Of a stretch of 64,000 nucleotides of DNA, positions 6,016-28,189 are shown one piece after another (position 1 is the first letter of the stretch; each line of letters starts with the position of its first letter). The stretch comes from Candidatus Baltobacteraceae bacterium. Its GTDB lineage: Bacteria; Vulcanimicrobiota; Vulcanimicrobiia; Vulcanimicrobiales; Vulcanimicrobiaceae. The position numbers were made by a program, and so were the translations under genes. The stretch is from assembly GCA_036488875.1 (NCBI GenBank), contig DASXGW010000012.1, positions 248,001 through 312,000 on the forward strand. Direction: 5' to 3'. The notes under the pieces were generated by a model that ran no database searches, had not been told where the DNA came from, and saw only the letters and a program-made list of their open reading frames with translations.

Positions 6016-6033
6016 CTACGCTAAAGTGCGTAG
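6016..6033. promoter_or_regulatory. Inverted-repeat operator at the XRE gene start
   Basis: CTACGC-TAAAGT-GCGTAG is a perfect 6-6-6 inverted repeat covering the probable start of the XRE gene, next to a TATGCT -10-like box. A longer version of the same palindrome lies at 6438-6457, before the next gene. The pair suggests a regulator that controls both itself and its neighbour. Confidence 0.6.
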
Positions 6034-6374
6034 TGGGCAGTGCTAGGAATAAGAAGCCGACCTTTGGTCAGGCTGTCATCGCGTTGCGCCGGGAGCAAGG
6101 ACTCAATCAGCGGGAGCTTGCCGCGCGCATACAGAGAGAGGACGGCGCGGGTACCATTTCGCCTCAGTATCTTAGCGACATCGAACACGACCGGCGTAGC
6201 CCCTCCAGCGACCACATGATGGAAGAAATTGCGCGTGCCCTCCAGGCAGATACGGCCTTCTTAAGTTTTCTTGCGGGCCAACTGCCCGCTGAGCTGAGGG
6301 ACATTCAGCTGGATCCTATGAGGCTACGAGCGGCGATCGCGGCCTTTCAAAAAGCCGCAAGAGTTAGACCGTAG
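6033..6374 (+). CDS. XRE-family transcriptional regulator
   Basis: A Cro/C1-type helix-turn-helix runs through FGQAVIALRREQGLNQRELAARIQ...ISPQYLSDIEHDRRSPSSD, followed by MMEEIARALQADTAFLSFLAGQLP. The frame stays open upstream to 5883. That part is not protein-like and overlaps the putative promoter, so GTG 6033 (113 residues) is preferred; translation could be leaderless. The palindromes at 6016-6033 and 6438-6457 are its likely binding sites. Confidence 0.7.
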   Translation: MGSARNKKPTFGQAVIALRREQGLNQRELAARIQREDGAGTISPQYLSDIEHDRRSPSSDHMMEEIARALQADTAFLSFLAGQLPAELRDIQLDPMRLRAAIAAFQKAARVRP

Positions 6375-6918: not shown

Positions 6919-8301
6919 TTGACCAAGTCCAACGATCATTGGGTTCCCCAATCGTATTTGCGCCGATGGACGACACTCCCGACCAATCGGCTCATTGCTT
7001 TGTGGCGCCAGGGCAAAATCGAACACACATCGCCGTGTTCGACGAAACGCGTACTGTCGGAGGACCACCTTTACACCATTTACGGGGAAGACGGGAGCCT
7101 CGTCTTACACGGTGAGACGAAGGTCTTCCAGGATATCGACAATGACGCTTCCGAGGCGCTCCGCTGGCTGGCTGATCGTGACTGGCGCGAGATGCCGGAT
7201 GCGACCGCTGAACCCTTTTACCGCTTTATTCATACGTTGGCTCCTCGCAGCCAACGGATGCGCGATGACTTCCTGAAGAAAGACGAGCGCATGCAGGCGG
7301 ACGTTATTGGTGAACTGCGTCGCCTCGGGGTTCCGAACGCTGAAGTCGTTGGACGGATGTCCGCCGGATCGGCCCGCGATCGCGCAGTCATGCGAATGTT
7401 GATGATCGCTAAGTTTGACGACTCTTGGCGCAAATTCTTTAACGGGATACCGTCATATGTGTACGACATCTCGGCGTACGATGCGGAGTTTTTTACCTCG
7501 GACTACCCGCTCTCGAGCACGCCGGCGATTGACGCACCGGGCGCAGTCCATGTCTTTCCCGTGTCACCGAGTCGTTGCTGGGTCGCCTCACATGACCCAG
7601 CCGCGGTTGAGAGGTTATGTGGGATGCCTCCTGCCATCTTCACTTCGGTTGTGAACCTGCGGACACTGGCAGGTGCGCATAGAGCCATTGCTCGCGACAA
7701 ACGATACCGCGAGCAAATCTTCAAATATCTTGGATGCGATGTGAACCCTGAATATCTCAAGGAAGCGTTGAGGGGCGCCTTCGCCGGAAGCGTTCGAACT
7801 GGTGTTGGCCCTGACGTCCCCGCCGAATGGCGCCATGAGGATCCTGATCCCTCAGGCTACAGGACACGCAAGGAAGCGTTTTGTGCCGGCATGGATGGCG
7901 TGTTATGGACCCAGGCGACAAAGGAGCCGGTCCTGCATACGGTCGGGCCGTGTGAGGCGCTCATATGGACTGTTCGCGATTGGTCGCTTCAGGTATCCAG
8001 TTATCGCGAAGCATACCAGCTTGGTAGGGGGCTCAGCTACATCTTCTTTCAGCTCGATAGATGGGGGCAATCGAAAGACGTTGGAGAGGAGATGCTCAAG
8101 CGTTTACGCCACGAGGCTGTGCGATCGGTAACACAACAGCGACGGACCGGGCAAAACGCGGTCTACGATCTTGATACACTACTTCGAACCTTCGCCGAAA
8201 TTACTCAGGTTTCGCTTAGCCAGATTTATCCGAACATCGAAGATCACGCGCGCGAGGTGTGGCTGTACGTTAATCGAGGTTTTCCTTTAGTATCCGCATA
8301 A
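6919..8301 (+). CDS. DUF4238 family protein
   Basis: A 460-residue protein whose N-terminus, NDHWVPQSYLRRWT, is the signature of DUF4238 (HxVPxxYLRxF). The family is widespread in accessory regions, and a nuclease or defence-linked role has been suggested but not shown. Further family-like segments are STKRVLSEDHLYTIYGEDG, FFTSDYPLSSTP and FPVSPSRCWV. The start is TTG 6919, seven bases after an AGAGG ribosome site; no ATG suits the conserved N-terminus. It follows the XRE-controlled pair in the same direction. Confidence 0.75.
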   Translation: MTKSNDHWVPQSYLRRWTTLPTNRLIALWRQGKIEHTSPCSTKRVLSEDHLYTIYGEDGSLVLHGETKVFQDIDNDASEALRWLADRDWREMPDATAEPFYRFIHTLAPRSQRMRDDFLKKDERMQADVIGELRRLGVPNAEVVGRMSAGSARDRAVMRMLMIAKFDDSWRKFFNGIPSYVYDISAYDAEFFTSDYPLSSTPAIDAPGAVHVFPVSPSRCWVASHDPAAVERLCGMPPAIFTSVVNLRTLAGAHRAIARDKRYREQIFKYLGCDVNPEYLKEALRGAFAGSVRTGVGPDVPAEWRHEDPDPSGYRTRKEAFCAGMDGVLWTQATKEPVLHTVGPCEALIWTVRDWSLQVSSYREAYQLGRGLSYIFFQLDRWGQSKDVGEEMLKRLRHEAVRSVTQQRRTGQNAVYDLDTLLRTFAEITQVSLSQIYPNIEDHAREVWLYVNRGFPLVSA

Positions 8302-9757: not shown

Positions 9758-11524
9758 CTACATAGTACCCTGCTTCACGGTTACTTGTATCGCGGTAATG
9801 CCGTAGCCGTGGAACGTCACAGTGCAGTTAGCAGGAAATGGCCCCTTGGTCGTTCCGCCGAGAATCACGTAGGCGCTCGGTCCGTTCATATTGCCGTCGA
9901 GCCAGCCGTAGAGCTCGAGGGAATTGCCGCACGCGTTACCGATCGACACGGTGAACGGTCCCGTGTACCCTGCCTCATACAAGTGAATGCTGGGATTGTG
10001 CTCCTGAACGACGTGCGACCCATTCCACCTCTCGCATCCGTAATCGTTGACCGACAACTTGGTCTGATCGCCGAAAGAGATGTCAGGATCGACGTCAGCC
10101 GACGTCATGCCGGGGATGTCGGGCTGATCGGCATTTGTGCAATTGAAGCTGGTAAGAGTGTACCCCGCTTTGGGATAGGTGATCTCCGAACCCGGTCCCG
10201 GAGTCGGCCAAACGTCGAACGTACCAGGCGTCGGAGTTGGCGTCGGAGTCGGTACGGGAGTCGGCGTCGGCGTTGGCCTCGGTGTGGGCGTCGGAGTCGG
10301 TACAGGCGTGGGGCTTGGCGTCGGCGACGGTGTTGGCGGCGTCGGGATCGACGCATGCACTAAGGCCTTGGCGGCGACGTCCAAAAACCAGGCGGTACCG
10401 TCAGATGCGGTGGTCATACCCCATGACGGCGTATTCGGGCTGCGCCCGTAGGTAAGTTCCTCGGAGGTTCCACCATTGGTCGCAAATGCGAGCTGCGCGT
10501 TCGTTATCCAAAGCCCAGCGCTTCCGCCGGCGATGGCGGTACCACAACAATATCCGGAGTCCATTGAAAGGTTGGCGACTGTGCCAGACATGGACAGTTG
10601 CAAAAGGTGCGTGCCAGATGTGACCCAGACGTATCCGCCGCTCGAGGTGATGCTAACGGCCGAACCATCCGTCGTCGGCAGCGCGTAAGTAGCGTACGAT
10701 CCTGACGTCGTCATACGTACCACCTGATTCGCGCCCGGCGCGACGCACCACAAATCGCCGTCAGGGCCAAGGGTAATGTCTGTGCACAAATCCGGTACCG
10801 TAATAGCGGTGGCGCTCAGCGTACTGACGTTGACTTCAACTATTGCGGGAGACCCGCTATAGGAACCGGTGAGCCACACGAAGCCGTTCGCGGTAGCTAT
10901 TCCGCCTGACCCCGAAAGGCCGGTTAACTGATACAGATTATAAGTGCCGCCCGCATTTGACATTTGCAACAGCAAATTGCCACCGGCCGGCGACCAGAGC
11001 GCGGCGTCTGGGCCGAGGGCCACTCCGATTGGACTCGGATAGTACGTGGATCCATTGAAAATCTTGGAGTGAAGGGAAAATTGCTGGAACGTGTCGGTTC
11101 CGGGAAAGAACTCGCTCATGATTCCCGATCCGTCCGGTGCGCCACTCTGCTCCGCAAACCAGAGGTTGGAGTTTCCGTCAAAAGCGAGGCCCTGGAGACC
11201 GCTGCCGGTAGGAACGCTGAATGCAGACGAAATGACCGACGTCACGTTCGGAGCAAACCCTTTTCGACGCTGGTGCGAACGAGTTGGAACGATCTTGCGG
11301 TGATCTATGCGCTCGAGTTTTATATGCTTTCGCCTGGCGTGACTGGTCTTAAGCGGCATCTGTCTCTGCGCAAGTTGTGGCTGTTGTTGCTGCGTCTGCG
11401 TCGCCGGCAACATCTGTGCTGTAGGAAGCGAAGACGGACTGCTGCTACATGCGCCGGCTCCTATAATTGAAGCAGCTGCTAAGCATATCGACAATGCACG
11501 CAGCGGCGATCGTTTACTAAACAT
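9758..11524 (-). CDS. Virginiamycin-B-lyase-like propeller lipoprotein with Pro-Thr linker
   Basis: From ATG 11524 the protein (588 residues) begins MFSKRSPLRALSICLAAASI with lipobox GAGAC. A Gln- and basic-rich spacer follows, then Vgb-type repeats (FDGNSNLWFAEQS, LGPDGDLWCV, SGGYVWVTSG, SDGTAWFLD). A low-complexity linker of PTPTP repeats (coding bases about 10225-10345) leads to a C-terminal domain of about 130 residues with several Cys. The start at 11626 would put 34 residues before the signal peptide. True Vgb enzymes cleave streptogramins, but here the propeller is part of a larger envelope protein and catalysis is not implied. Confidence 0.75.
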   Translation of the reverse strand: MFSKRSPLRALSICLAAASIIGAGACSSSPSSLPTAQMLPATQTQQQQPQLAQRQMPLKTSHARRKHIKLERIDHRKIVPTRSHQRRKGFAPNVTSVISSAFSVPTGSGLQGLAFDGNSNLWFAEQSGAPDGSGIMSEFFPGTDTFQQFSLHSKIFNGSTYYPSPIGVALGPDAALWSPAGGNLLLQMSNAGGTYNLYQLTGLSGSGGIATANGFVWLTGSYSGSPAIVEVNVSTLSATAITVPDLCTDITLGPDGDLWCVAPGANQVVRMTTSGSYATYALPTTDGSAVSITSSGGYVWVTSGTHLLQLSMSGTVANLSMDSGYCCGTAIAGGSAGLWITNAQLAFATNGGTSEELTYGRSPNTPSWGMTTASDGTAWFLDVAAKALVHASIPTPPTPSPTPSPTPVPTPTPTPRPTPTPTPVPTPTPTPTPGTFDVWPTPGPGSEITYPKAGYTLTSFNCTNADQPDIPGMTSADVDPDISFGDQTKLSVNDYGCERWNGSHVVQEHNPSIHLYEAGYTGPFTVSIGNACGNSLELYGWLDGNMNGPSAYVILGGTTKGPFPANCTVTFHGYGITAIQVTVKQGTM

Positions 11525-11727
11525 AAAAAAGCGAGCGCCGTTGTAGCGCAATGTTGCCTCCCCCGGCCGAATGAAGCGAGCGGCCGGCACAAGCTGAATG
11601 ATAGCGGACGCAAACGGCAGGGTCAAGTGACTTTTTTCCTACGAAGTCGACTACCGAAGTTCATACTAAGAGGGAAGCGCCTAATGCGGTCGCGCGCCCT
11701 TTGAGTGAACGGACGCTCTCTCGTGTA

Positions 11728-12684
11728 CTAGAAACTAACCGGAATCATCCAAATAATCCCATTGGAGATATCAGACACGTAGAGATCGCCGCGTTTGTTA
11801 ACGATGACGCCATAAGGACGTTTGAAGCCAGATCCGATTTGTCTCAGCACTTGACCGCCAGGGGACACCTCCACCACCGCACTATTGCCCGTATCTGCGA
11901 CGTAGAAGTTACAGTTCGTCGTGCAACGCGGATCTGACGCCACTCCGCGGGGGTAAGAAAATCCCGAGAACCGAGCCACGGCCGGCAAACAGATCAGCCC
12001 AGAAGGGCAGGGTGACATTGCAGGGACTACCTCGAACACGTTGGGTTGGACGAACCCGTTGCTGGTGCGCTCGGGTATAGCACTTGTGCCGTACACATGC
12101 CCAATCGCATCCACGGAAACCGCGGCGTCAGCCTCGGCTGTTGTCACGATAATAATTGTACGGGGCTTCGAGCCAGCAATGATCTCAGCTATTCTATTGT
12201 TGCCGTAGTCTGCGACATAGACGTCGCCCTTATTGTCGACGGCGAGGCCCATGGGAGAAGAAAATCCATGGCCAAACACACTTGAGGCGCCGTTCTTCTT
12301 GATTCGCCAAACTTGATTGCTGCCAGTATCCGAGACGTAAACGTTACCCATCGCGTCGACGGCAACGCCGGACGGTCGCTTAAGACCTCGAGCCACCGTC
12401 GAGATGGTTCCATGAGTTGCACCCGTGAACGGAGGAGCTATCTTCTCGACCGTCTGCTTGCGGCTGTCAGCAACGTAGACGTTCCCAGCAGAGTCGACTG
12501 CAATGCTCTCGGGATCCTTGAATCCAGAACCAATCTGGATCATGGACGCGCTCGACCGCGACGCCGGCTGCAGCATGTTAGGAATCTGAGCTTGGGAGAG
12601 GGGCGGAAGTTGCCCGGAGGCGCATGCCGATAGAAGTGCCAGGAGCCCAAGTGCGACCACTCGTCGAACAACTAACAAGCTCAC
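11728..12684 (-). CDS. NHL-repeat lipoprotein
   Basis: GTG 12684 lies six bases after a perfect GGAGG and gives MSLLVVRRVVALGLLALLSA with lipobox LSAC. The GTG at 12699 would overlap the Shine-Dalgarno site. The mature protein has NHL repeats of the form FKDPESIAVDSAGNVYVADS, RPSGVAVDAMGNVYVSDTGS and SPMGLAVDNKGDVYVADYGN, forming an approximately six-bladed propeller of about 300 residues. It probably acts at the outer face of a membrane; ligand unknown. It is the second same-strand propeller gene in a row. Confidence 0.8.
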   Translation of the reverse strand: MSLLVVRRVVALGLLALLSACASGQLPPLSQAQIPNMLQPASRSSASMIQIGSGFKDPESIAVDSAGNVYVADSRKQTVEKIAPPFTGATHGTISTVARGLKRPSGVAVDAMGNVYVSDTGSNQVWRIKKNGASSVFGHGFSSPMGLAVDNKGDVYVADYGNNRIAEIIAGSKPRTIIIVTTAEADAAVSVDAIGHVYGTSAIPERTSNGFVQPNVFEVVPAMSPCPSGLICLPAVARFSGFSYPRGVASDPRCTTNCNFYVADTGNSAVVEVSPGGQVLRQIGSGFKRPYGVIVNKRGDLYVSDISNGIIWMIPVSF

Positions 12685-13358
12685 GAAAGACCTCCGCACG
12701 AAGCTAGCGCTATTTCTGGGAAGCCTTCAATCAATCGGGCTTCACCCGCAACCTCACCTTCGTGCTAAGGTGTCCGGCAGCGCTAATCCCAATGTTCGGC
12801 AGCCGTTTCAGGGATTTTAGCGCAACGCGCAACGGGTATCTGAAAACGGCCGCACCCGTCCGTTCGCCACTGAAATCGTTCCGCTTCGCGGATTCAGGTT
12901 CGTCCAAGGAACGCGAGCGACCCAAGCGTCGTTCTGTCACCGACCCCTTTCGGATACTGGCCACTTCATAATTAGATCGCCAGCAGCAGATCGCGAACTG
13001 GGTTCTCCTGGCGGCCGTTATCGGACGGCTTGAACGCAATCTGAATGTCGCACTCCCGCCGGGAGCCCTCGTAAATCTTCGAGAGGGCGACGCTCGTTTC
13101 GAGGAGGGAGCGCTCGACGTGAAGGTGTGGCAGCTCCTCGAAGCGCTGTGCGTGTGCGCCGCGATTTCGACGGTTCGGACGCCTATGGGGACGAATGGTA
13201 TTACGGCGCGCACGAGACGCGCGGCGAGGGCGCGCCGCACGTTTTGCTCGCGTCCACTCGCCGCACCGAATACGCCGGTGGCGACGGACGATGAAGACGC
13301 TGTTCCCTGCGGACCACCGCCGACCGGAATCCATCGACGTACGACAGAAACGAGCGGC
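12685..13358. other. Gene-poor stretch between lipoprotein cargo and the ABC-3C block
   Basis: No intact gene is seen in these 670 bases. The left part (12740-12960) has only arginine-rich frames in all readings. The middle contains the coding remnant described at 12972-13145. Between 13167 and 13300 a plus-strand stretch reads DFDGSDAYGDEWYYGAHETR, which is protein-like but has no start. The stretch looks like a junction where genes were deleted. Confidence 0.4.
12972..13145 (-). pseudogene. C-terminal remnant of an unidentified gene
   Basis: The minus strand encodes RFEELPHLHVERSLLETSVA, LSKIYEGSRRECDIQIAFKP and a short end NGRQENPVRDLLLAI before TAA. Composition is protein-like, but upstream the frame dissolves into arginine-rich low-quality sequence with no start. 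The family was not recognised. Confidence 0.4.
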
Positions 13359-14027
13359 ATGGCAACCTTCGTTCGCAGCAAGTCAGCTAGGTTGGAATGG
13401 AACATCAATCCGCATACGGAGTATGGATATCGTCAGGCGTTAAGCCTGGGGGACTCGCTCCGCGCCGGCGGATTTGCTGATGATGACCAGCGACGCTATT
13501 TCGCTGCTGGCTACGAGTCGCGAATGCAGCCGAGTCAAGAAACCCACGCGATAATCGAGGCGCTTGGAACGAGCGTCGCTGCCGTTGCCGTCATGATTCC
13601 GAAGACGGCGTCTTTGCTCTCCGCATTCGTCGCGCTCGCATCCGATCAGGACTTCCTCGAGGCTCGCATTCAATCTCGAACGCTGGGTGCCATCATGCTG
13701 CAGATGCGCGATCAGCATGTTACGTCGCCGACCCCTCTCGCCCATCTCTTCAATGATCTCGCTCGTCTCGTCGAAAATCCAACGAACAGCGCTTTCGGCC
13801 TGATCATCGCTCTTGCACTCGTCATGCTCCTTCGACTCACGCCGAAGGGGCCGGCAACGCTGGGAACATTCGAAGCGATTCTAAGCCACGCGGAGACGCA
13901 GCCTATGGCAGTGCTAGCCAACGCTGGGAGAATGAAAGGCTTGTCACCGCAGAGAATCATCGCCGAAACCTCCCTGGAAACCGCGGGTGGTGGCATCATG
14001 CCTCAGGAGGAAGACGGCGATGAGTAG
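13359..14027 (+). CDS. First protein of an ABC-three-component-like module (222 aa)
   Basis: ATG 13359 is preferred to starts further upstream because the upstream residues are arginine-rich and overlap the decayed region. The protein is mainly helical. It has two hydrophobic stretches (IIEALGTSVAAVAVMIPKTA and NSAFGLIIALALVMLLRL) that could be membrane segments or buried helices. Its end overlaps the next gene by eight bases. Position suggests that it is the variable or effector component of an ABC-3C conflict system. No catalytic motif was seen. Confidence 0.6.
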   Translation: MATFVRSKSARLEWNINPHTEYGYRQALSLGDSLRAGGFADDDQRRYFAAGYESRMQPSQETHAIIEALGTSVAAVAVMIPKTASLLSAFVALASDQDFLEARIQSRTLGAIMLQMRDQHVTSPTPLAHLFNDLARLVENPTNSAFGLIIALALVMLLRLTPKGPATLGTFEAILSHAETQPMAVLANAGRMKGLSPQRIIAETSLETAGGGIMPQEEDGDE

Positions 14028-14676
14028 CGCCTCAGATGCGCACATAAGCCGAAAGCGCGACGCTGTTCGCATTCTTCACATATTGAACGAATGCGGCGAC
14101 CTTCTGCACAAACCGCCGCTGGGTGTTCCGGACGCAGTGAAGGTGATCAACTCGCAGAAGAAGTTACAAGCGCTCGACTTCTGGGTCCGCAACCCCGACT
14201 ATCTTGCACACGAACTCATTAACCAGTACCGAAGCCGCAAGGATGAGTCGTTGCTCGACGCGGCGGAAACCGTGATGGCCGGCAACGAGCCTGAACTTCG
14301 GCGACTCGGAATGCTGCGCTTCTACTTTGGTGCTTTCGAAAGCATCGTTGACACCGTGGCTAGCCTGAAGATGCTCGGCCTCGCCGACCTCACTCGGAAA
14401 ATCAGTGGGAATCCACCGACCATAAAGCAACGCGACTACTATCTGCTCAAGGCTGGCGAAGAGAAAGCCGCCGAACTCGCGCAGGACCCAATACTCAAGT
14501 GGTATGCGGAACGCGCGGCTCTCGTCGGACGCGTAGCCAACCAGCGCAGCGGAGCCGTCCTAAAGAAAGAGCAGCATAAGGTCGCCAGCTATCACAATGC
14601 CAGATGGGGCGAGATCATTGCTCCGATCACGAACGAAGTGCGCGGCGAACTCGCTAAGGCGAAAGCAGAATTATGA
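14020..14676 (+). CDS. ABC-3C middle component-like protein
   Basis: ATG 14020 follows a strong GGAGG and overlaps the end of the upstream gene. The 218 residues contain KLQALDFWVRNPDYLAHELI, EPELRRLGMLRFYFGAFESI and YYLLKAGEEKAAELAQDPIL, then WYAERAALVGR and a KKEQHKVASYHNARWGEII helix. This is the organisation expected of the winged-helix middle component of ABC-three-component systems, which links the ATPase to an effector or nucleic acid. It ends in a four-base overlap with the ATPase gene. Confidence 0.65.
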   Translation: MSSASDAHISRKRDAVRILHILNECGDLLHKPPLGVPDAVKVINSQKKLQALDFWVRNPDYLAHELINQYRSRKDESLLDAAETVMAGNEPELRRLGMLRFYFGAFESIVDTVASLKMLGLADLTRKISGNPPTIKQRDYYLLKAGEEKAAELAQDPILKWYAERAALVGRVANQRSGAVLKKEQHKVASYHNARWGEIIAPITNEVRGELAKAKAEL

Positions 14677-16601
14677 GCAGCGGATCGTTCATCGAGGCAG
14701 TCGCCGAACGGTCGGGACAAGGCGCTGACGCCGTTGACGAAATCCTGGAAAGGAATCGGATCGTTTCCGATGCTGTGCCATCGGTGGCGCGACGTCTCAA
14801 GGTCACGCGGATTGCGTTCCGCGGCACGAAGACTCTTCACGACGAGAAGATTCCATTCGACTTCGAGCGTAGCGATCTCGATGACGGCCTCTGGCTCATC
14901 GCTTCCGAGGACAACTTGGTTGGTAAGTCCAGCATTCTTCAAATCATGCTATGGGCGATTCGAGGCGAACCGAAATCCCTTGCCACCGACGTGCGAGCCT
15001 GGCTCGACCATGTCGAGGTTGATCTCGTCGCAGATACACGAAGCATCGCTGTCAAATTCGACATTGCGAACGGTACGCCGGCTGGGTCCGTAACAATCGA
15101 AGGTGAGCCCACGCCTCTGGAGTTTGGAAACAGCCCGTCATTCAAACGCATCATGCAGGACGTCATGCTGAAGACTTTGGGGTTCGATCCCATACCAGCG
15201 ACGATGAAAATCAATCCTGAAGGCGACATCAAGCTCTATCAGGACGGGTGGACTTCGTACACTGGTGCGTTTCTCTCGGACCCGAAGAGCAACTCCATCA
15301 TCGGTGAAGACGTACCGGAGACCAACTTGACGCAGCGACTACTTCAGGTATTTCTCGGCATACCATGGGCAACCACTCACTTTCAGGCGCGTGCCGCAAA
15401 GAGAATTCTAGAGAATGAAGCGGCGCAACAAAAACGTCGACTTGCCTCGGTAGGTGGCCGAACGGTAGCGAGCCTCGAGAGCGAGATCGCGATGATCGAC
15501 GCTCAGATTTCGGACGAGGGTGCTCGCCAGGCGACCGTGGCGGAATTGACGGCGAAGCAACGTCAGTTGGACAGCATCCTCGAGCAGTTGACGATGACTC
15601 GCATGGACCTGGCCGAACGCGAAGCACTTGTCGCGGATCGTGAGGACTCGGTCGTTCGCAAAGAGCGCCTTCTCCTCGACGCGAAGGAAGAATCCACATC
15701 TAGCGCATTCTTCAAGCAACTCAATCCTGTTGTCTGCCCTCGGTGCTCAACGAAAATCACCGAGGAACGGCGCAAGCGAGAGGCGGCCGAGCACCATTGT
15801 TCCGTTTGCACGACAATGGTGCTCGAATCCGGAGAAGACGTAAGCGCCGCGGAAATTGCCGAGGCGGAAGACGCCCTTGCCACGGCCAAACGCGACCTCG
15901 AGTCCGCTCGAAAAGCCAGCAGCGATAAAAGAGCAATCATCATCAACCTTACTTCGGAGCGAGAAGAGATCGCGAGAGACGTCGCTCGACTCGGCCGTCT
16001 CGGAACATCTGCAGACGTTCAGATACTGGAAAAGCAGAAAGAACGCCAGCTGGGGATGCTCGAAATCGTCACCTCGGTTCTGGGAGAACAAAACCAAAAC
16101 GATCAGGAACTAGCGGTCGTTTCAGCCGCCGAGGCAGAAGCCGAAGCGCGCACCAAACAAGCCGCGGACACGGTGCTCGAAGTCGCCTCCCAGGAAATTA
16201 CGCGCATCGTCCAAGCACTAGGGGCCAAGGCGTTCGATAGCGTGCACCTCGACCGAGCAGCACACTGCAAGGTCAGCAAAGGCGGCGAGACCAGCCACTT
16301 CAGCAAACTGACCGACGGCGAGCAACTGCGTCTGCGGATTGCGACCATCCTCTCCCTCATGCACACCACCGGCAAGAACAAGACCGGACGGCACCCAGGC
16401 TTCCTGCTCATTGATTCGCCGGGCGCAGCTGACCTGAAGGCCGAGAACGTCGCTGAAGCCATTCGAGAGATTGCTGCTGTTGTAGAAGACCTAATGAACA
16501 TCCAGGTTTTCGTGGCGATGCGGGGGGTCGAGCTAGCCAAGAGCGTCGCCCCGCGGCCTGAACGGGTCATCGCCGCTGCCGAAGGCAAGTATATCTGGTA
16601 G
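14673..16601 (+). CDS. SMC/Rad50-like ABC ATPase with zinc hook, ABC-3C type
   Basis: A 642-residue ATPase. The P-loop is degenerate in its first half but keeps GKSS (SEDNLVGKSSILQI, residues 78-91). Long coiled coils (about 240-345 and 390-510) flank a zinc-hook-like CPRC (355-358) and CSVC (376-379). The C-terminal half has an ABC signature-like LTDGEQLRLRIATI and a Walker B region GFLLIDSPGAAD. These are features of compact Rad50/SMC-type ATPases found in conflict systems. The gene overlaps the middle-component gene (ATGA). It probably acts on DNA ends or as a nucleoprotein sensor. Confidence 0.75.
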   Translation: MSSGSFIEAVAERSGQGADAVDEILERNRIVSDAVPSVARRLKVTRIAFRGTKTLHDEKIPFDFERSDLDDGLWLIASEDNLVGKSSILQIMLWAIRGEPKSLATDVRAWLDHVEVDLVADTRSIAVKFDIANGTPAGSVTIEGEPTPLEFGNSPSFKRIMQDVMLKTLGFDPIPATMKINPEGDIKLYQDGWTSYTGAFLSDPKSNSIIGEDVPETNLTQRLLQVFLGIPWATTHFQARAAKRILENEAAQQKRRLASVGGRTVASLESEIAMIDAQISDEGARQATVAELTAKQRQLDSILEQLTMTRMDLAEREALVADREDSVVRKERLLLDAKEESTSSAFFKQLNPVVCPRCSTKITEERRKREAAEHHCSVCTTMVLESGEDVSAAEIAEAEDALATAKRDLESARKASSDKRAIIINLTSEREEIARDVARLGRLGTSADVQILEKQKERQLGMLEIVTSVLGEQNQNDQELAVVSAAEAEAEARTKQAADTVLEVASQEITRIVQALGAKAFDSVHLDRAAHCKVSKGGETSHFSKLTDGEQLRLRIATILSLMHTTGKNKTGRHPGFLLIDSPGAADLKAENVAEAIREIAAVVEDLMNIQVFVAMRGVELAKSVAPRPERVIAAAEGKYIW

Positions 16602-16631
16602 CATGAGCAACCGTCGAGCCGTACCTACGAC

Positions 16632-17789
16632 ATGAGCCCCATCGTAGAGATCGCGAAAGAGGCGATATCCTTAGGAAGCCCTATGGATCTCGCGCTTTTC
16701 GGCGGGGAGACGGCCATTTATGCAGATCACTTCTGGCCGAATTCGCCCGTCTTCGGAGACGTAGCCGAGATGCTGCTCGATAGTTGGCAGGATCTCGACC
16801 AGCCGAGTGAAGCCTATGACTCGATAATGGCCGGGTTGCGAGACAATAGCGACCGCGACGCCTTCCAACACGCCCTCGAAGCCATCGCCGCTGCGCCTCC
16901 GCCGGACCTCGCTAGAATCGTAGTAACACTCGAAAAGCGCGTTCGCGACGAACACACGCACGAACTACTGCGAGCGGCATCCGCTTCCGCGATCCTGCGA
17001 TTCTCCATTGCTGACGACCAGTGGCAATCTTCTGCGGAGGCGGCCATTAGAGCGACAGAGGATTTTACGGACGAATATGCGCTAGCGATGATTCTCAGGC
17101 TGGCATCCGTCGGCTGGGAGCACTTCAGAAGTGCAACGCTAATCGCCATGCTCGAAAGACACGCCGCTCACCCACAGGCATCGTACGAACGCGGCGTCAT
17201 TGGCCTTGCGCTCGCGATGGAACACGAGAACCTTGCCGATATCGCTCTTGGCTTGACCGAAGCAGCCAAATGGCTGCGACGCTCGGTCTCGGCGGATGCG
17301 GAACGTCGAGATGCCATCGTCTACCTTCAGCTCACCGAGGCGTTGATGGCGATATCGAATCATCAACGAGCATCGCGCGACATCGCAATCAAGCTCCGCG
17401 AAGAAGCGACGATACGCTACCTCTGGGACAAGCCTACTCCCGGAAGCGAATGGCTGCTTCCACCACCCGAGGCCGTACTCCAATGGATTCCACTCGTTGA
17501 CGCTATCGTTTCCGTCAGCGAACGGCTCACCGAGCCCTCTTGGGACGATATCGCAATGTCGCTCGCGCTCATGCTCAGAACTTATACGTCGGTACGCTCC
17601 GTGCAACCCGGCATGCCCGGCGTCGAGCGAGTCGTGCATCCCGCCATTGATGCCGCGTTCGTTCAAGAACGAGGCTTCCTCGCGCTTCTCACGCAGTGGC
17701 TTGACGCTCATCCTGACATCATAGAGGCGGATGACGCACGCACCCTCCGAGAGAACATCGGCAGAAGGCTCCGAACCGAGGGAAAATAA
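16632..17789 (+). CDS. Alpha-helical repeat protein of the ABC-3C/retron block
   Basis: A 385-residue soluble protein that is almost entirely helical. Ala/Leu/Glu-rich stretches are spaced about 35-40 residues apart (FQHALEAIAAAPPPDLARIV, HELLRAASASAILRF, SYERGVIGLALAMEHENLAD), which suggests HEAT- or TPR-like repeats. It lies 30 bases after the ATPase gene and 41 before the nuclease gene, on the same strand. A scaffold or sensor role within the locus is likely. No known family was recognised. Confidence 0.6.
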   Translation: MSPIVEIAKEAISLGSPMDLALFGGETAIYADHFWPNSPVFGDVAEMLLDSWQDLDQPSEAYDSIMAGLRDNSDRDAFQHALEAIAAAPPPDLARIVVTLEKRVRDEHTHELLRAASASAILRFSIADDQWQSSAEAAIRATEDFTDEYALAMILRLASVGWEHFRSATLIAMLERHAAHPQASYERGVIGLALAMEHENLADIALGLTEAAKWLRRSVSADAERRDAIVYLQLTEALMAISNHQRASRDIAIKLREEATIRYLWDKPTPGSEWLLPPPEAVLQWIPLVDAIVSVSERLTEPSWDDIAMSLALMLRTYTSVRSVQPGMPGVERVVHPAIDAAFVQERGFLALLTQWLDAHPDIIEADDARTLRENIGRRLRTEGK

Positions 17790-17830
17790 ATCGGGACGAG
17801 CCTGACCGGCAAGACTCGCTCCCTGAAGAT

Positions 17831-18535
17831 ATGACAGCCGGCATCAGCACTGCCGGCCTCCTAAAGATCAAGACGGCAACTGGCTTCTCCATTGCAATGC
17901 CTCTGGCTATGTCGCTTGTGGAAGACGCCGTTTTCGAAAGGCTCCGAGGCGAGTTGCCTTCCGCACCGGCCTACAAGGAAGAGGTTGCGGTTCGATTCGA
18001 TTATCTACTGGTAGCGCTCATTCGCTTTCTGTATTCGCGAATGCACACCGATTCCGAGATCCAACCGTACCTTGCCGCGTTCGGAGATGGCACAGCACCG
18101 GTCGAGGGCAAACTGGAAAACGATCTCTACCTCGCGCTGTCCATGATTTTCCGCAGCGACATTCAACGACGCGCCGTTTCCGCTGGCAGAACCGATATCG
18201 TCATTCGCGAACACAACTTCAATTTCGTCATCGAAGTCAAACGAACGTTCGACGAGTGGTCCATCGCGGTTCCGGGGTTCCTTGGGCAGACCACGGCATA
18301 TCAGCAGGCCGACGTGAAGATCGGTGTTCTTTCCATTCTCGATCTCACCGAGCGCGATGCTGGTGTTCCAGGCTTCGAATACTGCTTCGAAGTCCACGAG
18401 CGAACCATCCCGAACGAGAGTGGTCGATGGGCGCTCGTCATGCGCGTGCCAGGCAACAGAACCCTACCCTCGAAAATGAGCAAACCACGAGCACCAGCCA
18501 CCAAATCCAGGCGACGCAAAAGCCAGTCCGGGTAA
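17831..18535 (+). CDS. PD-(D/E)XK-type nuclease
   Basis: A 234-residue protein with AGRTDIVI (Asp122), then FVIEVK (Glu135, Lys137) as the core PD-(D/E)XK motif. A QTTAYQQADVKIGVLSILDL helix-strand unit follows, with the Gln and Tyr (153, 157) seen in related restriction-like enzymes. An upstream Glu-rich helix (LENDLYLALSMIF) may supply another metal ligand. The C-terminus is a basic tail. It should cleave DNA and is a good candidate for the effector of the upstream module. It ends 78 bases before the retron RNA. Confidence 0.7.
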   Translation: MTAGISTAGLLKIKTATGFSIAMPLAMSLVEDAVFERLRGELPSAPAYKEEVAVRFDYLLVALIRFLYSRMHTDSEIQPYLAAFGDGTAPVEGKLENDLYLALSMIFRSDIQRRAVSAGRTDIVIREHNFNFVIEVKRTFDEWSIAVPGFLGQTTAYQQADVKIGVLSILDLTERDAGVPGFEYCFEVHERTIPNESGRWALVMRVPGNRTLPSKMSKPRAPATKSRRRKSQSG

Positions 18536-18613
18536 ACCGCCGAAACCCCGGGATTGACTACGAACCTCGCAGATCTTGCCTTGTAGGGTACTCCATGTTA
18601 CAGTCCGCTATGA

Positions 18614-18750
18614 AGACTCACTGGTAGATTATTGTGTCATGCTTCGTGACACGTGAGGCAAAGGGTAGGACCTATGCTGCCTCTCAGTTGCCCCATTGCA
18701 CCAACGTGCTATCGCTTCAGCGCTTGCAGCGTAAGAGTACCAGTGAGTCT
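18614..18750 (+). ncRNA. Retron msr-msd RNA
   Basis: The interval is bounded by a perfect 13-base inverted repeat: AGACTCACTGGTA at 18614-18626 and TACCAGTGAGTCT at 18738-18750. These correspond to the a1/a2 repeats of retrons. A G follows a1 directly (18627), the position of the branching guanosine. Inside are a hairpin GTGTCA-loop-TGACAC (18634-18652), a longer GAGGCA/TGCCTC hairpin (18655-18683) and smaller stems GCAC/GTGC and CGCT/AGCG (18698-18731). It ends 13 bases before the reverse transcriptase start. The msd part would be short, about 50 bases. Confidence 0.75.
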
Positions 18751-18763
18751 CTTTATTTTTTGA

Positions 18764-20509
18764 ATGTCCAATCTTAGCGAACTGAAGGCAACGAAGACGC
18801 TTCGGGGGCTCGCCACGCTGCTCGGGCATAACGCGCAGACGCTTTCCTACATCCTCTACAAGATTCCGCCGGAGTCGAAATATCAGACATTCCTGATACC
18901 CAAGCGGAGCGGCGGTCAACGCTCCATAAGCGCTCCCACGGAAAAACTTAAACGCCTGCAGCGCAATCTTGCCGACCTGCTCCAAGACTGCGCAGAAGAG
19001 CTAGCCGTCTCCAAGAAGCGCATCGATTATCTTTCGCATGGATTCACGCGCCAGAGATCGATCGTATCCAATGCGCGCATGCATCGCGGCCGGCGCTGGG
19101 TGTTGAACCTGGACCTCCAGGATTTCTTTCCGACCTTCAACTTCGGTCGCGTGCGCGGATTCCTGATAAAGAACCGGGATTTCGAACTGAACCCGTACAT
19201 CGCAACGCTCATCGCGCAGATAGCATGCCATGATGGCCGGCTTCCGCAAGGAAGTCCATGTTCGCCCGTTCTGGCCAACCTCATCGCGCACGTGCTCGAC
19301 ATGCGAATCGTAGCACTCACCAGAACGCTGGGCGTCAGATATTCTCGCTACGCCGACGACCTCACGTTCTCCACGAACAAGCGTCAGTTCCCATCGCAAC
19401 TCGCCGTCCCAAAGCCAGATGACAACGGTGCCGCAACGCATGCCTGGGTGCCAGGCGATGAACTTCGCGGCATCATCGAGCGGGCCGCATTCCGCATCAA
19501 TGAGCAAAAAACCAATATGATGTACTGCGCGTCGCGCCAAGAGGTCACCGGGCTCGTTGTCAACCGCGCCATACGCGCGCAGCACCGATACCGTCACGGG
19601 CTCAGAGCGATGGTGCACAAACTCGTTAGAAACGGAACGTTCGACGTATTCGGAATCGTCCACAAAGACGGCACGAGTGTCATGGAAAAGCGTGAAGGAA
19701 CTGTCAAGCAATTGCACGGGATGCTCGGCTTCTCCGATTTCATCACCAACGACAGCAAGGCGGGTGGACCGCAGCCCTTCGGCAAGCACTCGTCGTCTGA
19801 CGAAAGAACCTATCGAACATTCCTGTTCTACAGCATGTTCTATGCGCCGGATCGGCCCGTTATTCTGTGCGAGGGCGGTACGGATAGCATCTATCTCACG
19901 TATGCCATCAAACGATTAGCTGCCGAGTACCCCGATTTACTGGAAACTGTGGATGGCAAAATGCGCCGTGCCATCAAGATTTTCGAATATAGGGATTCCA
20001 GCACGGGTCGCCTTTTGAATCTCAATGAGGGTGGGAGCGACGTTCTCAAGAAGTTTCTGTACGCCTATCGTAGCGAAACAAAGAACTTCGGGCCTGGGCT
20101 TCAACGCCCGGTTATCGTGCTTTTCGATCACGACAGAGGAGCGACAGAACTTCGCAAGGCCATCAAGAACTTCACTGCTGCGCCCGATCTGTCGTGCGAC
20201 TTTCCATCTGTCCACGTCATCAAGAATGTGTACGCTGTCCCGATTCCCGGCGAAAACTCGAAGATTGAGGACCTCTTCAAGCCCGAAACGAAGAACGTCA
20301 TCATTCGCGGCAAGTCCTTTGACTCGACCAATCAGTACGACACGGACGGATTCTACGGGAAGATGATATTCGCTCGCGAAGTAGTTGCACCCCATTACGA
20401 GACGATTGACTTCTCGGGCTTTCGCCCACTGCTGAACAACATTTTATCGGTAATCCGCGAACACCGCAGACTGCTCGTCACGAAGGGTTTTGAGCCAAGC
20501 GCACTCTAA
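18764..20509 (+). CDS. Retron reverse transcriptase fused to a TOPRIM domain
   Basis: A 581-residue protein. The N-terminal half is a retron-type reverse transcriptase: NARMH (103-107) matches the retron NAxxH motif, LDLQDFFPTF (116-125) the first Asp motif, LPQGSP (160-165) motif 4, YADD (196-199) the catalytic motif and VTGLVVN (261-267) the retron VTG motif. After a linker, residues 363-480 form a TOPRIM-like domain with VILCEGGTD (Glu370, Asp374) and LFDHDRG (Asp455, Asp457). I recall RT-TOPRIM fusions from type I retron subgroups linked to ABC ATPases. It should use the RNA at 18614-18750 as template and primer. Confidence 0.85.
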   Translation: MSNLSELKATKTLRGLATLLGHNAQTLSYILYKIPPESKYQTFLIPKRSGGQRSISAPTEKLKRLQRNLADLLQDCAEELAVSKKRIDYLSHGFTRQRSIVSNARMHRGRRWVLNLDLQDFFPTFNFGRVRGFLIKNRDFELNPYIATLIAQIACHDGRLPQGSPCSPVLANLIAHVLDMRIVALTRTLGVRYSRYADDLTFSTNKRQFPSQLAVPKPDDNGAATHAWVPGDELRGIIERAAFRINEQKTNMMYCASRQEVTGLVVNRAIRAQHRYRHGLRAMVHKLVRNGTFDVFGIVHKDGTSVMEKREGTVKQLHGMLGFSDFITNDSKAGGPQPFGKHSSSDERTYRTFLFYSMFYAPDRPVILCEGGTDSIYLTYAIKRLAAEYPDLLETVDGKMRRAIKIFEYRDSSTGRLLNLNEGGSDVLKKFLYAYRSETKNFGPGLQRPVIVLFDHDRGATELRKAIKNFTAAPDLSCDFPSVHVIKNVYAVPIPGENSKIEDLFKPETKNVIIRGKSFDSTNQYDTDGFYGKMIFAREVVAPHYETIDFSGFRPLLNNILSVIREHRRLLVTKGFEPSAL

Positions 20510-20705
20510 CGCGCATGGTATTGAGCCAAAATTTAAAAAATCGGGTTTTGCGCCAGAGCCACCAGGTGCTCAAAGTGGGCCATCACCGTTGGGTCTTTTC
20601 GACGATCGCATTCATCGGAGCTCCGGGCCTCGTTATTGCCCTCTTTTCCGCTTGCCGCGGCGTATCGCCGGCGAGTACGCTAATAACCCCTTGCGAGCCT
20701 GTTCC

Positions 20706-20723
20706 GTGCCCAATCCGTGCCCA
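20706..20723. repeat. Paired GTGCCCA repeats next to the tRNA-Glu att site
   Basis: GTGCCCA occurs at 20706-20712 and 20717-20723, 47 bases from the tRNA 3' end. The same pair with the same 11-base periodicity stands beside the copy at 5571 (5713-5730). They are probable recombinase arm sites. The stretch 20510-20705 holds no other feature that I can recognise. Confidence 0.45.
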
Positions 20724-20740
20724 CTCTGGTACAACGAAAC

Positions 20741-20768
20741 GAAAAACGCCCGTTAGAATGAGCGTTTC
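20741..20768 (-). terminator. tRNA-Glu terminator
   Basis: On the minus strand an AAACGC/GCGTTT stem with an inner CCG loop is followed by a T run, directly downstream of the tRNA 3' end. Its sequence differs from the terminators at the two other full att copies. Confidence 0.65.
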
Positions 20769-20769
20769 T

Positions 20770-20844
20770 TGGTAGCGCCAACGGGAATCGAACCCGTCTT
20801 TCCGCCTTGAAAGGGCGATGTCCTAACCGATAGACGATGGCGCC
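20770..20844 (-). tRNA. tRNA-Glu (anticodon UUC)
   Basis: 75 bases with the CCA encoded. The acceptor GGCGCCA pairs with TGGCGCT (first pair G-U). The anticodon loop CCTTTCAAG shows UUC, and the T-arm GGGTTCGATTCCC is canonical. The 3' 28 bases are duplicated at 1362 and 5571 and partly at 4955, marking this gene as the integration site of the accessory region to its left. Confidence 0.95.
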
Positions 20845-23384: not shown

Positions 23385-26318
23385 TTACTTATAGCAGGTT
23401 TCCAGCAATTCTTGAAGGCGCAGCTTCATTTGTACTAAGCGCTTGCATTCGGGGCAACCAGGTCCTCCGGTGATGAGATGTCCTCGATAGTACGCGGCTT
23501 CCAATTCCATTTGAGTCGCGTCGTTTAGCTCCGTCATCAAACCGCGAAGAAAATCGCCCTCTTGACCGACGAAGAAGAACTCGCTACAACCTTTGGGATT
23601 GCCGCGCGGCGCGAGCGTGTTTTCCATGTTCGTTTCATATTCGGTGTCGCCTTGATGGTAACCACTCTCCATCACGCCGACTGAATCGCCCGAAACCGGA
23701 TCCACGCGCCACCAACCAAAGTGCTGTCTGCCGTCGATGTCGATTGGGTCGCTTGGTGCGACGACGGCATATCCCATTGCTAAATCATCTTGGATGCGAG
23801 CGAGCACGTCTGCGTCGACGTGCAGCGACTGCAAGTTCGGATCGCCCTTCTTTGAAATAACGACTGGTGTTTTCCCTTGCGCTCCGTACGCCGCTAAGAG
23901 ATCGGCGGTGTTCTCGCCCGCTGCGGGGGACGGCAACGCGGCCTGCTCCGCCAGAGTGTCGGCTACTCCTTGTTCGAGTCGCACGCGGTTGGGATTGGGT
24001 GCGGCGGGCGCAACCGCGATCTCATTGTTTACAATGTCGAGATTCTCTCGCTCCACCAAACGATTTTGGCTCATTACTGGACCGCGCAAAGAAAGAACCA
24101 CGTTCGGGCGATCCAGATAGCGATCGGAGCGCACGGGACTCAACCGCTGACGGTCGAGCGCAAAGGCATACAACGACCACGGCACCGAACCGAGCGCGTT
24201 GCGAAACGCGCCGCGATTCGGTACGAGCGCCTCGCTCGTCTGATGCAGCACGAACTCCGGCGAGATATCGCTTACCAGGGGCAGTATGCGTACTTGCGTG
24301 AGAAGAGCCAGCGCGCGCTCAAACCTCGTGGAATCTGAAATCGTAGCGCCAGGAGTTGCGGCATTTCGAGCCGCCGGACCGCGAATATCCATGATTTGCC
24401 GGCGAATCACACGCGATTGCAGGCCGGGAGAGCGCAGCTCGAATTCCAACCACACAGCAGTGAGACCGGCGTCGGTAAACGTACCCTGCGATACGATCCG
24501 GTCGCCGATGCGAAGAGCCGGCTGCCATTGCTTCATCGCCACCGCTTGTGCTTGGCTCGTATCGGTTGGAGCGAAGGTCAGTGCGATCGGCTGACCGATC
24601 GCGTCGCTTGGCCGCATGGAGTAATCGAGAACGGTGTTTTCGCTAAAACCATTGCCCTGTTGGCTTTCGGTGACGACACGAATGCCCAGCTCGTGGAACA
24701 ACGCTGAATCCAGCTGCTGCGGTGGCGTTACCGAAAGCGCCGTCAGGCCGCTCGATCCGGCTTGAGCGGCTTTATCGGAAGGATCGAAGCTCGACCACGC
24801 CCCGTTTTCATTTACCTGCACGAACCAGCGATCTTCGATCGCTGCAAGTTGCCCGTTTTCAACGGCTGGATTCGCCGGACCGGCGGGAACCAGTGATGCC
24901 AGCATGGCGACCTGCGCGTCGAGCGCATCTTGCTGCTGCTTACGTTGACGGTGCCAATCGTCGACGACTGCGTCGACTTGCGCACCCGGAATATCGCCGG
25001 ATTTTAACTGACCTCGCAAATCGTCGAGGAATTGGGATTCCGGTGGAGTTGAAGCCGGTGCGGGCTGAGCTTGCTGCATGGTCGAGAGCACGCTGCGGGC
25101 CTGCGCTTCGCTCAGCCGTGCGCGCGCCAATCGGACTTGTTGGCCTGCGCGTCGATCGAGGTCGGCTAACAAGAGCGCTCTATCGAGACTGCTGCCGACG
25201 CGGTCCATCAGCACGCCAACCGGTCCGCGCAGCGACCCCTGATACGGAACCAGCGTTGTGTTGTCGCGAACCCATTCAAAAAGTTTTTCAGGATCGCGTC
25301 CGACCCGGTCGACGACGGCTTGAGGGTCATACGTATCGCGCGCCGCACTCGCGTCGTTTGCCTGCAAGTCGTCGAAGAACTCGTTCATGCCGGCCTTCAC
25401 GTCCACTGCCGCGCCGCTTGGGCTCGGTGCCGCGGCAACGGTGGTGACGCAAGGCGCAGGTGCGGGCGTCGCTGCTGACCCCTGCGCGTTGCCGCTTAAC
25501 CCGCCTCCTATCCCACCACCTAAACCAGAAGCGGCGCCCATTTGGCCAAGCGACGATGCACCCGGCGCAACGGCGTCGATTGCGCTGGACCCACCGCTGC
25601 ACGCCGTTACCGCCGGACGCTCGAAGGCGACGATCGTGGGAAGACTCCGCGCACCCGCTTCATACGCACCGATTTGAATTGCCAGCAGCGTGGCAACGGC
25701 AATGAGCAAGATGCTCAAAAATCCAGGCCGGCGACGAACGGCAACAGTCGCCGCGGTTATAAGTGCCGAGAGTAGCAATACGGGCAGTACCACCTCGACC
25801 ATGAGGTAGGCACCGCGCAACCAATACGGATGAGCGATAGGCGCGGTCGTTCCGGCAAGCGCCGCATCGACGCCCGCGCCCCCGGAAATGGCTAACGCGA
25901 AGGGAGCGATCAAATACACGCCGAGCAAAGCGGCTCCCAGCCGCAACCAGAGCGGAGTCCTATTCGTGAAGAGCACGGCTGCAGCTGCGACGCCGAAAAT
26001 TATGGGGAGGATTGCTTCGCCCACGACACCGGCCGGCTGTCGCGCGAGAACGATCCCGCCATCCGCGAGCGAGCCCAGTTTCCAACCCGAATAGGCCGTG
26101 ACGATTTCGAGAACGACGAGCGAGGCCAGGATTTTCGGTACGACGCCGAAGCGCTTCCACAAGACGGCCGTGAGCAGAGCATAAGCAACGACGATGCCCG
26201 CAACGATCCAGCGAATGGTACTGCCGGTTAGGGCGGTCTCGATTGCCACGTCGAGCAACGCGATGTAGAGTGCGACGTTTGCGATCCAGCCGAGAACGCG
26301 CTGCGTTTGGTTCATCAT
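23385..26318 (-). CDS. Large membrane protein with transglutaminase-like region
   Basis: 977 residues. The first 230 hold six to eight hydrophobic segments. A Gly/Ala/Ser-rich linker follows, and from about residue 330 a region WVRDNTTLVPYQGSLRGPVG then SSLDRALLLADLDRRAGQQVRLARARL. That pattern resembles bacterial transglutaminase-like domains, but the usual catalytic Cys before the ALLLADL helix is replaced by Ser/Leu. The C-terminal third contains GYAVVAPSDPIDIDGRQHFGWWRVDP and a Cys-rich end (GGPGCPECKR). It is probably an envelope protein with a non-catalytic transglutaminase fold. It is divergent from the gene at 26438. Confidence 0.6.
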   Translation of the reverse strand: MMNQTQRVLGWIANVALYIALLDVAIETALTGSTIRWIVAGIVVAYALLTAVLWKRFGVVPKILASLVVLEIVTAYSGWKLGSLADGGIVLARQPAGVVGEAILPIIFGVAAAAVLFTNRTPLWLRLGAALLGVYLIAPFALAISGGAGVDAALAGTTAPIAHPYWLRGAYLMVEVVLPVLLLSALITAATVAVRRRPGFLSILLIAVATLLAIQIGAYEAGARSLPTIVAFERPAVTACSGGSSAIDAVAPGASSLGQMGAASGLGGGIGGGLSGNAQGSAATPAPAPCVTTVAAAPSPSGAAVDVKAGMNEFFDDLQANDASAARDTYDPQAVVDRVGRDPEKLFEWVRDNTTLVPYQGSLRGPVGVLMDRVGSSLDRALLLADLDRRAGQQVRLARARLSEAQARSVLSTMQQAQPAPASTPPESQFLDDLRGQLKSGDIPGAQVDAVVDDWHRQRKQQQDALDAQVAMLASLVPAGPANPAVENGQLAAIEDRWFVQVNENGAWSSFDPSDKAAQAGSSGLTALSVTPPQQLDSALFHELGIRVVTESQQGNGFSENTVLDYSMRPSDAIGQPIALTFAPTDTSQAQAVAMKQWQPALRIGDRIVSQGTFTDAGLTAVWLEFELRSPGLQSRVIRRQIMDIRGPAARNAATPGATISDSTRFERALALLTQVRILPLVSDISPEFVLHQTSEALVPNRGAFRNALGSVPWSLYAFALDRQRLSPVRSDRYLDRPNVVLSLRGPVMSQNRLVERENLDIVNNEIAVAPAAPNPNRVRLEQGVADTLAEQAALPSPAAGENTADLLAAYGAQGKTPVVISKKGDPNLQSLHVDADVLARIQDDLAMGYAVVAPSDPIDIDGRQHFGWWRVDPVSGDSVGVMESGYHQGDTEYETNMENTLAPRGNPKGCSEFFFVGQEGDFLRGLMTELNDATQMELEAAYYRGHLITGGPGCPECKRLVQMKLRLQELLETCYK

Positions 26319-26437
26319 TCTGCGCCTCTTTTGAAATCTTATCGGACTGTAGTCCGACCATTCATACGGCGTTGCGATTCACCTCTTGGGGGATGGGTGA
26401 GACGAGTGCCGAAAAAGGTGCTCCTGACCGGAACGAG

Positions 26438-28189
26438 GTGAAAGCGTTGCTAAGCTCTCTTCGCGCTCTTCTTATACTCCCATTGGCGCTAGCCATCGCC
26501 GCGTGCAGCTCGACGGCGCCTGCCGGCGGCCCCATTCCGCCGCCGCAAATCGGAGGAGACGGGGCGAAACACAAGCTCAAGGCAACGGTTCGCATCGTGA
26601 TTCCCAAACGCAAACGCGGTCGCCGCGTGCTGTTGCACGGACATTACGTTTCGCTTTCTACCAAGTCGATTGCCATGGCCGTAACCGCGTCGACGGGCGG
26701 CAGCCCCGAGAACTTCAACGCAGATCTAACGGCGGCGACAAACCCGGATTGCCTCGCCTATTCCGGTTCGACGGTGTGCACGCTTCCGCTCAGACTTGCA
26801 GCCGGAGATTATACGATAATCGTTGCGACGTACGACGGACTGCTTGCGGGCGGAAACGCTCCGAATAATCCCCCAACCGGCAAAAAGCTATCGGCTCACC
26901 AAAGCGTACCCTTCGCCATCACTCGCGGCAAAACAAATCAGCTCAGCGTGACCCTCGACGGCATTCCCACCGGCGTCGCGCTGGTGCCCGCAAGTTCGAC
27001 GCTCACCGGCAACGACGCGTCGGGATTCGCGCTCGCGCGATGCTCGCAACCGGCACAGAACGTCGAGGTGTACGGCGTCGACGCCGATGACAACTACATT
27101 CTTGGGCCCGGCGCGCCCACGCCGGCGCTCGCGTCAAACGATGCCGGCAATCTTCCGGTTACGGCGACTCCGGGGCCGTCGGCCCCCAACCAGTTTACGC
27201 TGACGCCGCCGGCATATCCGACCAAGAACGCGGTCGTCCAACTGACTGCGGGTGTTACACCGAAAGCGGGAATCGGGGCGTCGTCACAGTCTGCGAAGGT
27301 CAACGTCACGTTTGGTTCGACGACCTGCTATTCGATCTCTGAGTACTCGGCATCGAGCAGCAGCAGTAGCGGCAGCAGTCCGAGCGCTATCGCCTCAGAC
27401 GGCACCAATCTGTGGTTTACGGTAGGAAACTCGGTCACTAAAATGACGACTGCCGGAGCGGTGGTGGGGAACTATTCGGCCGGAACCAATCCCGGTAGCC
27501 TTGCTTTTGATGGAACCAACATGTGGGTCGTCGACAGCATAAGTTCCGGCACGGTCACCAAGCTGTCTTCGACGGGAACGACGTTGGGGACGTACGGCGT
27601 AGGAAGTTATCCGAACGGGATAGCCTTCGACGGGACCAATATGTGGGTCCCCAACAGCAGCGGTTTAAGCGTCACGAAGTTGTCGCCGACCGGAGCAACG
27701 CTTGGGACCTATACCGTCGGAAGCGGACCCGGTGCGATCGCGTTCGACGGGACCAATATGTGGGTCGCGAACTATAGTGCCAGCCCCGGCTCGGTCAGCG
27801 AGCTGTCTCCCACAGGCGCAGCGTTAGGGACGTTCGACGTCGGGAGTCATCCCGCCGCCGTCGCGTTCGACGGAACCAACATGTGGGTTACGAACCTTTT
27901 CGATAACACCATCACCGAACTGTCGCCGGCCGGGTCGGCGCTCAATACGTTCACGATTCCAACGAGCGCTAGCCATCCGGAGTTCATTGCGCTGGGCGCA
28001 GATAGCGCGATGTGGTTCACCGAAGCCAACGGAAACAACATCGGGCGGGTCACGAGTGACGGAACGTTTACCGAAATCCCCGTCCCGACGGCCAGCAGCG
28101 AGCCGATCGGGATCGCCAAGGGCCCGGACGGCAACATGTGGTTTACCGAAAAATCCGGCGACAAAATCGGAACGGTGGTAGTACACTAG
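26438..28189 (+). CDS. Vgb-type propeller lipoprotein
   Basis: From GTG 26438 the protein (583 residues) begins with a lipoprotein signal ending in lipobox AIAAC. An alternative TTG lies two codons on, with an AGGTG site at better spacing. Residues to about 260 form a beta-rich domain like the stand-alone protein at 4060-4845. The rest is a Vgb-type propeller with six near-identical repeats built on AFDGTNMWVxN and TLGTYxVGSxPxxI, ending in GPDGNMWFTEKSGDKIG. The repeats are so similar that recent internal duplication is likely. Confidence 0.75.
   Translation: MKALLSSLRALLILPLALAIAACSSTAPAGGPIPPPQIGGDGAKHKLKATVRIVIPKRKRGRRVLLHGHYVSLSTKSIAMAVTASTGGSPENFNADLTAATNPDCLAYSGSTVCTLPLRLAAGDYTIIVATYDGLLAGGNAPNNPPTGKKLSAHQSVPFAITRGKTNQLSVTLDGIPTGVALVPASSTLTGNDASGFALARCSQPAQNVEVYGVDADDNYILGPGAPTPALASNDAGNLPVTATPGPSAPNQFTLTPPAYPTKNAVVQLTAGVTPKAGIGASSQSAKVNVTFGSTTCYSISEYSASSSSSSGSSPSAIASDGTNLWFTVGNSVTKMTTAGAVVGNYSAGTNPGSLAFDGTNMWVVDSISSGTVTKLSSTGTTLGTYGVGSYPNGIAFDGTNMWVPNSSGLSVTKLSPTGATLGTYTVGSGPGAIAFDGTNMWVANYSASPGSVSELSPTGAALGTFDVGSHPAAVAFDGTNMWVTNLFDNTITELSPAGSALNTFTIPTSASHPEFIALGADSAMWFTEANGNNIGRVTSDGTFTEIPVPTASSEPIGIAKGPDGNMWFTEKSGDKIGTVVVH

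Follow-up and report, generated by a model that had tools for sequence, protein, structure and literature searches.

The window, a 64-kb stretch of DNA, almost certainly carries a complete Ec67/Eco2-family retron with one gene (PADLOC type I-C), whose mechanism we infer from Retron-Eco2. The locus is of a known kind: covalent fusion of a reverse transcriptase (RT) to a TOPRIM domain defines this family. It adds to the family a member from a bacterial group that is sparsely sampled, and it is no novel type of system. Its parts, in order along the window, are as follows.

18614–18626, plus strand: a1 arm of the retron inverted repeat, AGACTCACTGGTA, a perfect 13-bp complement of 18738–18750.
18627, plus strand: predicted branching guanosine, whose 2′-OH would prime cDNA synthesis; equivalent to Eco2 rG15 by homology.
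18634–18652, plus strand: msr RNA stem-loop, GTGTCATGCTTCGTGACAC, the sole msr hairpin, as in Eco2; identified from the fold and from changes on both sides in 7 of 8 pairs.
18664–18736, plus strand: predicted msd template for a 73-nt cDNA, positioned by homology to Eco2.
18738–18750, plus strand: a2 arm of the retron inverted repeat, TACCAGTGAGTCT, pairing with 18614–18626; identified from covariation and a covariance model.
18764–20509, plus strand: RT-TOPRIM fusion protein of 581 aa, with RT at about 1–330 and TOPRIM at about 365–581; identified from NF038237, PADLOC RT-Toprim_I-C, and the Eco2 structure 9i2f.

Curated family models and solved structures place the protein over its whole length. 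NCBIfam NF038237 (retron_Ec67_fus) scored 624.2 bits against a cut-off of 450 and covered positions 1–571 of 572, PADLOC RT-Toprim_I-C (PDLC02966) scored 672 bits end to end, and the top PDB matches were the Retron-Eco2/Ec67 entries 9i2f and 9lm3, each at E of about 1e-115 across the whole length (9i2f, E = 4.5e-115). An earlier note on this DNA had read retron hallmarks and TOPRIM residues from the translation, and both sets are present: NARMH (the NAxxH motif) at 103, YADD at 196, and VTG at 261, together with PQGSP at 161, and, in the C-terminal half, Glu370 and D455xD457. The Pfam OLD-like_TOPRIM match is subthreshold (13.7 vs. 23.2 bits). The effector has its TOPRIM fold in common with OLD/Gabija nucleases, to which the Eco2 study likened the Eco2 TOPRIM (PMC12405507), but the window protein lacks an ATPase. 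RT-TIR (type XII) and RT-protease (type XI) retrons are likewise single-gene fusions with related RT domains (about 300–320 bits); they differ in their effector domain, and the match covers the RT half only.

Aligned globally with Eco2 from E. coli S10, the protein is 41% identical (RT, 46%; TOPRIM half, 36%). Functional residues of Eco2 were taken from the published study (PMC12405507) and mapped through this alignment. Ten of them—F46, R56, K66, R70, R184, Y199, D201, D202, R264, and Q329—are identical in the window protein, where F46, R184, Y199, D201, and D202 correspond to F43, R181, Y196, D198, and D199. Eco2 H281, E374, D378, D460, D462, and E515 correspond to window H285, E370, D374, D455, D457, and E502. 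The catalytic set (E374, D378, D460, D462, S513, and E515) is thus kept except at S513, a metal B ligand in Eco2 (PMC12405507), which is replaced by K500 at a position that varies in nine relatives too. The trimer contact R332 of Eco2 falls in an alignment gap, and K562, as quoted in the paper (PMC12405507), has no match under the numbering used.

We placed the RT by maximum likelihood among 24 RT domains, eight of them from group II-type RTs and none from diversity-generating retroelements (DGRs); the four group II-type RTs that were checked by family model all scored above the group II intron cut-off. The window RT groups with nine other RT-TOPRIM RTs (support 81/96), and this group is nested within the retron group (100/100). 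Placement among group II introns or DGRs had been named beforehand as evidence against a retron; in this tree the group II-type RTs are split from the RT-TOPRIM group at 100/100. The nearest row to the window RT is L003, an RT-TOPRIM retron from a genome of the same taxonomic family (G096), with 52% identity over the whole protein and 58% over the RT. Its a1/a2 repeat and msr hairpin lie at equivalent places with compensatory changes relative to the window, and it too adjoins a copy of a tRNA-Glu 3′ end; its ncRNA is 130 bases long against 137, and its neighboring genes differ.

On the RNA side, the perfect 13-base a1/a2 repeat reported in the earlier note does bracket a structured RNA of 137 bases immediately before the RT gene. 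The predicted fold of 18600–18763 has a free energy of −59.5 kcal/mol (z = −3.7; that is, 3.7 SD below dinucleotide shuffles). Among arms separated by 60–200 bases, a1/a2 is the sole perfect 13-mer inverted repeat in the window; such a repeat was also found in 2 of 10 shuffles. Because of this, a 13-base repeat is not by itself significant in 64 kb, and comparative evidence is needed; the assignment of a1/a2 is established by its location 5′ of the RT and by covariation among relatives. Rfam at gathering threshold reported only two tRNAs across the whole window, and the ncRNA was therefore assessed using a model derived from related loci. A scan limited to sigma-70-like sites found no promoter-like site at 18400–20800.

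The comparison comprised the window and 12 RT-TOPRIM loci (13 sequences), drawn from plasmid records and whole-genome searches. One relative belongs to the same family and phylum, and the others are mainly from Alpha-, Beta-, and Gammaproteobacteria. A protein-pattern search of genome contigs returned one partial relative, and the same search of viral contigs returned none. The inverted repeat and msr hairpin are present, and identically ordered, in all 12 relatives, with spans of 121–147 bases. Across the 13-sequence alignment, 19 of the 22 pairs in a1/a2 and the msr hairpin changed on both sides (12 of 14 aligned pairs for a1/a2), and 94.8% of cells were paired, vs. 75.7% in shuffles; pairing fell to 28–45% when the partner was slid by one to three columns. 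The a1/a2 repeat and the msr hairpin are maintained by compensatory change. Absence of covariation in a1/a2 among relatives was the other result that the earlier note had named as counting against a retron, and the strong covariation runs the opposite way. In an RT-TOPRIM retron on a Caballeronia sp. SBC2 plasmid (L019), the gene is frameshifted after the RT palm and the ncRNA arms still pair well.

A covariance model trained on the 12 relatives, with the window excluded, recovered 18614–18750 (64 bits, E = 1.3e-12); the second-best match in the window had E = 1.3. The model also picked up three RT-TOPRIM loci outside the training set (L032, L033, and L034), and among the loci of group II introns and other retrons that it was run on, it matched none. 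These results bear directly on the proposal that the repeat is a coincidence, the C-terminal domain is unrelated, and the locus belongs to another retron type, a group II intron, a DGR, or some other RT. Its motifs are indeed common among RTs (family model TIGR04416 gave 65.7 bits, its cut-off being 300), and the repeat alone would be unremarkable in a stretch of this length. Covariation across a1/a2 and the msr, together with the match to an independently trained model, makes this proposal vanishingly improbable, and its group II intron component is refuted, including by the separation in the tree described above. None of the results speaks against membership of the Ec67/Eco2 family.

The landmarks within the ncRNA can be compared with those of Eco2. 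As in Eco2, a single-gene RT-TOPRIM fusion is preceded by an ncRNA with a1/a2 and one msr hairpin, a G follows a1 directly, an 8-nt spacer lies ahead of the cDNA stop, and a conserved GAGT lies ahead of a2 (window AGAGTACC, Eco2 GGAGTGCC); a second GAGT sits inside the window a2. G18627 is invariant across the 13 aligned ncRNAs, and the branching guanosine of Eco2 is rG15 (PMC12405507). The Eco2 cDNA has a length of 67 nt, and its final nucleotide is paired to rG52, which comes after a single-stranded spacer 3′ of the msr hairpin (PMC12405507). We therefore let the cDNA start opposite the A of the GA that precedes the conserved G-T/A-CC of a2 and stop opposite the G after the 8-nt spacer. This rule returned exactly 67 nt on the Eco2 sequence of E. 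coli S10, matching the published length, and 73 nt on the window, where the first base of the predicted cDNA would be a T opposite A18736 and the last a C opposite G18664.

The earlier note had taken the msd to be unusually short, which is wrong since the landmark rule yields 73 nt against 67 nt for Eco2; the 137-base span likewise lies within the range of the relatives, with 131 for Eco2, and the msd length is normal for the Ec67/Eco2 family. The msd sequence itself is unrelated to that of Eco2. The note's identification of a retron fused to TOPRIM stands; the novelty it implied does not, the fusion being the family's defining trait. A novel kind of retron, with TOPRIM newly joined to an RT and a short msd, is accordingly highly improbable: the fusion is real, but it is common to all 10 aligned proteins (the single RT-TOPRIM group of the tree) and to Eco2, the msd is longer than that of Eco2, and the curated models and published Eco2 work refute the reading. 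Weak folding of the cDNA was considered as a peculiarity of the locus and rejected (z against shuffles, +0.2 for the window and −0.1 for Eco2).

The function of the retron is most likely abortive anti-phage defense, with msDNA restraining a TOPRIM RNase, by analogy to Eco2, for which the structure and RNase effector have been published (PMC12405507). The window contributes anatomy, homology, covariation, and most of the catalytic residues; msDNA production, autoinhibition, RNase activity, trigger, and phage defense would carry over from Eco2. On this model, the ncRNA at 18614–18750 would fold with a1 pairing to a2, and the RT would prime at the 2′-OH of G18627 and copy the msd, starting at A18736 and ending near G18664; the product would be a branched msDNA whose DNA part is about 73 nt long. 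Together with the RT domain, this msDNA would then keep the fused TOPRIM nuclease inactive, probably with msDNA bridging RT-TOPRIM protomers into a trimer, as homology to Eco2 would predict. For Eco2, DenB-like nuclease activity of the phage has been proposed to break the msDNA and release the RNase (PMC12405507); here a phage product such as a DNase (DenB in the Eco2 case) might similarly damage the msDNA, and the freed TOPRIM would cut RNA and stop the infection. Given the differences from Eco2 in msd sequence, at one metal-ligand position, and in the trimer-contact loop, members in this sparsely sampled group could conceivably differ in the trigger sensed or the RNA cut, a tentative suggestion that we consider on balance doubtful.

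A Lamassu operon (13987–18535), detected with PADLOC, lies directly upstream of the retron, and a tRNA-Glu gene lies downstream.

13987–14676: LmuC of the Lamassu operon.
14673–16601: LmuB of the Lamassu operon.
16632–17789 and 17831–18535: LmuA of the Lamassu operon, in two frames.
20770–20844, minus strand: tRNA-Glu gene, 260 bases from the retron end.

The two LmuA pieces cover profile positions 1–401 and 402–654 continuously in overlapping frames, with the break near 17741–17831; this looks like a frameshift, a split gene, or an assembly error. An ORF at 13119–14027 overlaps the start of lmuC, has no Pfam or PADLOC match, and is possibly a further gene of the operon. Copies of the tRNA-Glu 3′ end occur at 1363 and 5572 (identical over 27–28 bp), position 4956 has a 17-bp match, and farther to the left the contig contains two more exact 22-mers (G000:C12:219465 and 223031). 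The arrangement suggests several islands stacked at one tRNA-Glu attachment site, the last of which, about 15 kb long, would carry Lamassu and the retron. G096, from another genus of the same family, has att copies at 161205 and 187381 (L035, G096:C29), with the retron beside one and a tyrosine integrase at 161366 beside the other, as might be expected of the same tRNA-Glu hotspot with different cargo.

A further reading is that the locus is a genuine Ec67-family retron that is nonfunctional in its host and is decaying as a passenger in the tRNA-Glu island. The adjoining split lmuA and the lysine in place of Eco2 S513 would fit this account, but the RT-TOPRIM frame is unbroken for all 581 codons, pairing between the a1 and a2 arms is perfect, and the protein retains the residues that are invariant in the alignment; we regard decay as unlikely and an intact retron as the better description.

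RT-TOPRIM retrons were found in only 2 of 149 sampled genomes of this bacterial group, and TOPRIM is the commonest fused retron effector in a published survey (37% of fusions; PMC12405507). The locus opens no new mechanism; with it, a retron family of solved structure reaches into a sparsely sampled group. It also yields divergent, strongly covarying ncRNAs that can help to set the family's msr/msd boundaries and to pick new msDNA-producing scaffolds.

Elsewhere in the window, a DUF4238 protein (6919–8301) and a nearby HTH regulator (5883–6374) lie in the same island. Predicted secreted beta-propeller-like proteins (NHL, Vgb-lyase-like) are encoded at 2845–3912, 9758–11626, 11728–12699, and 26243–28189, the last judged from its repeats only, and some of them lie inside the tRNA-Glu islands.
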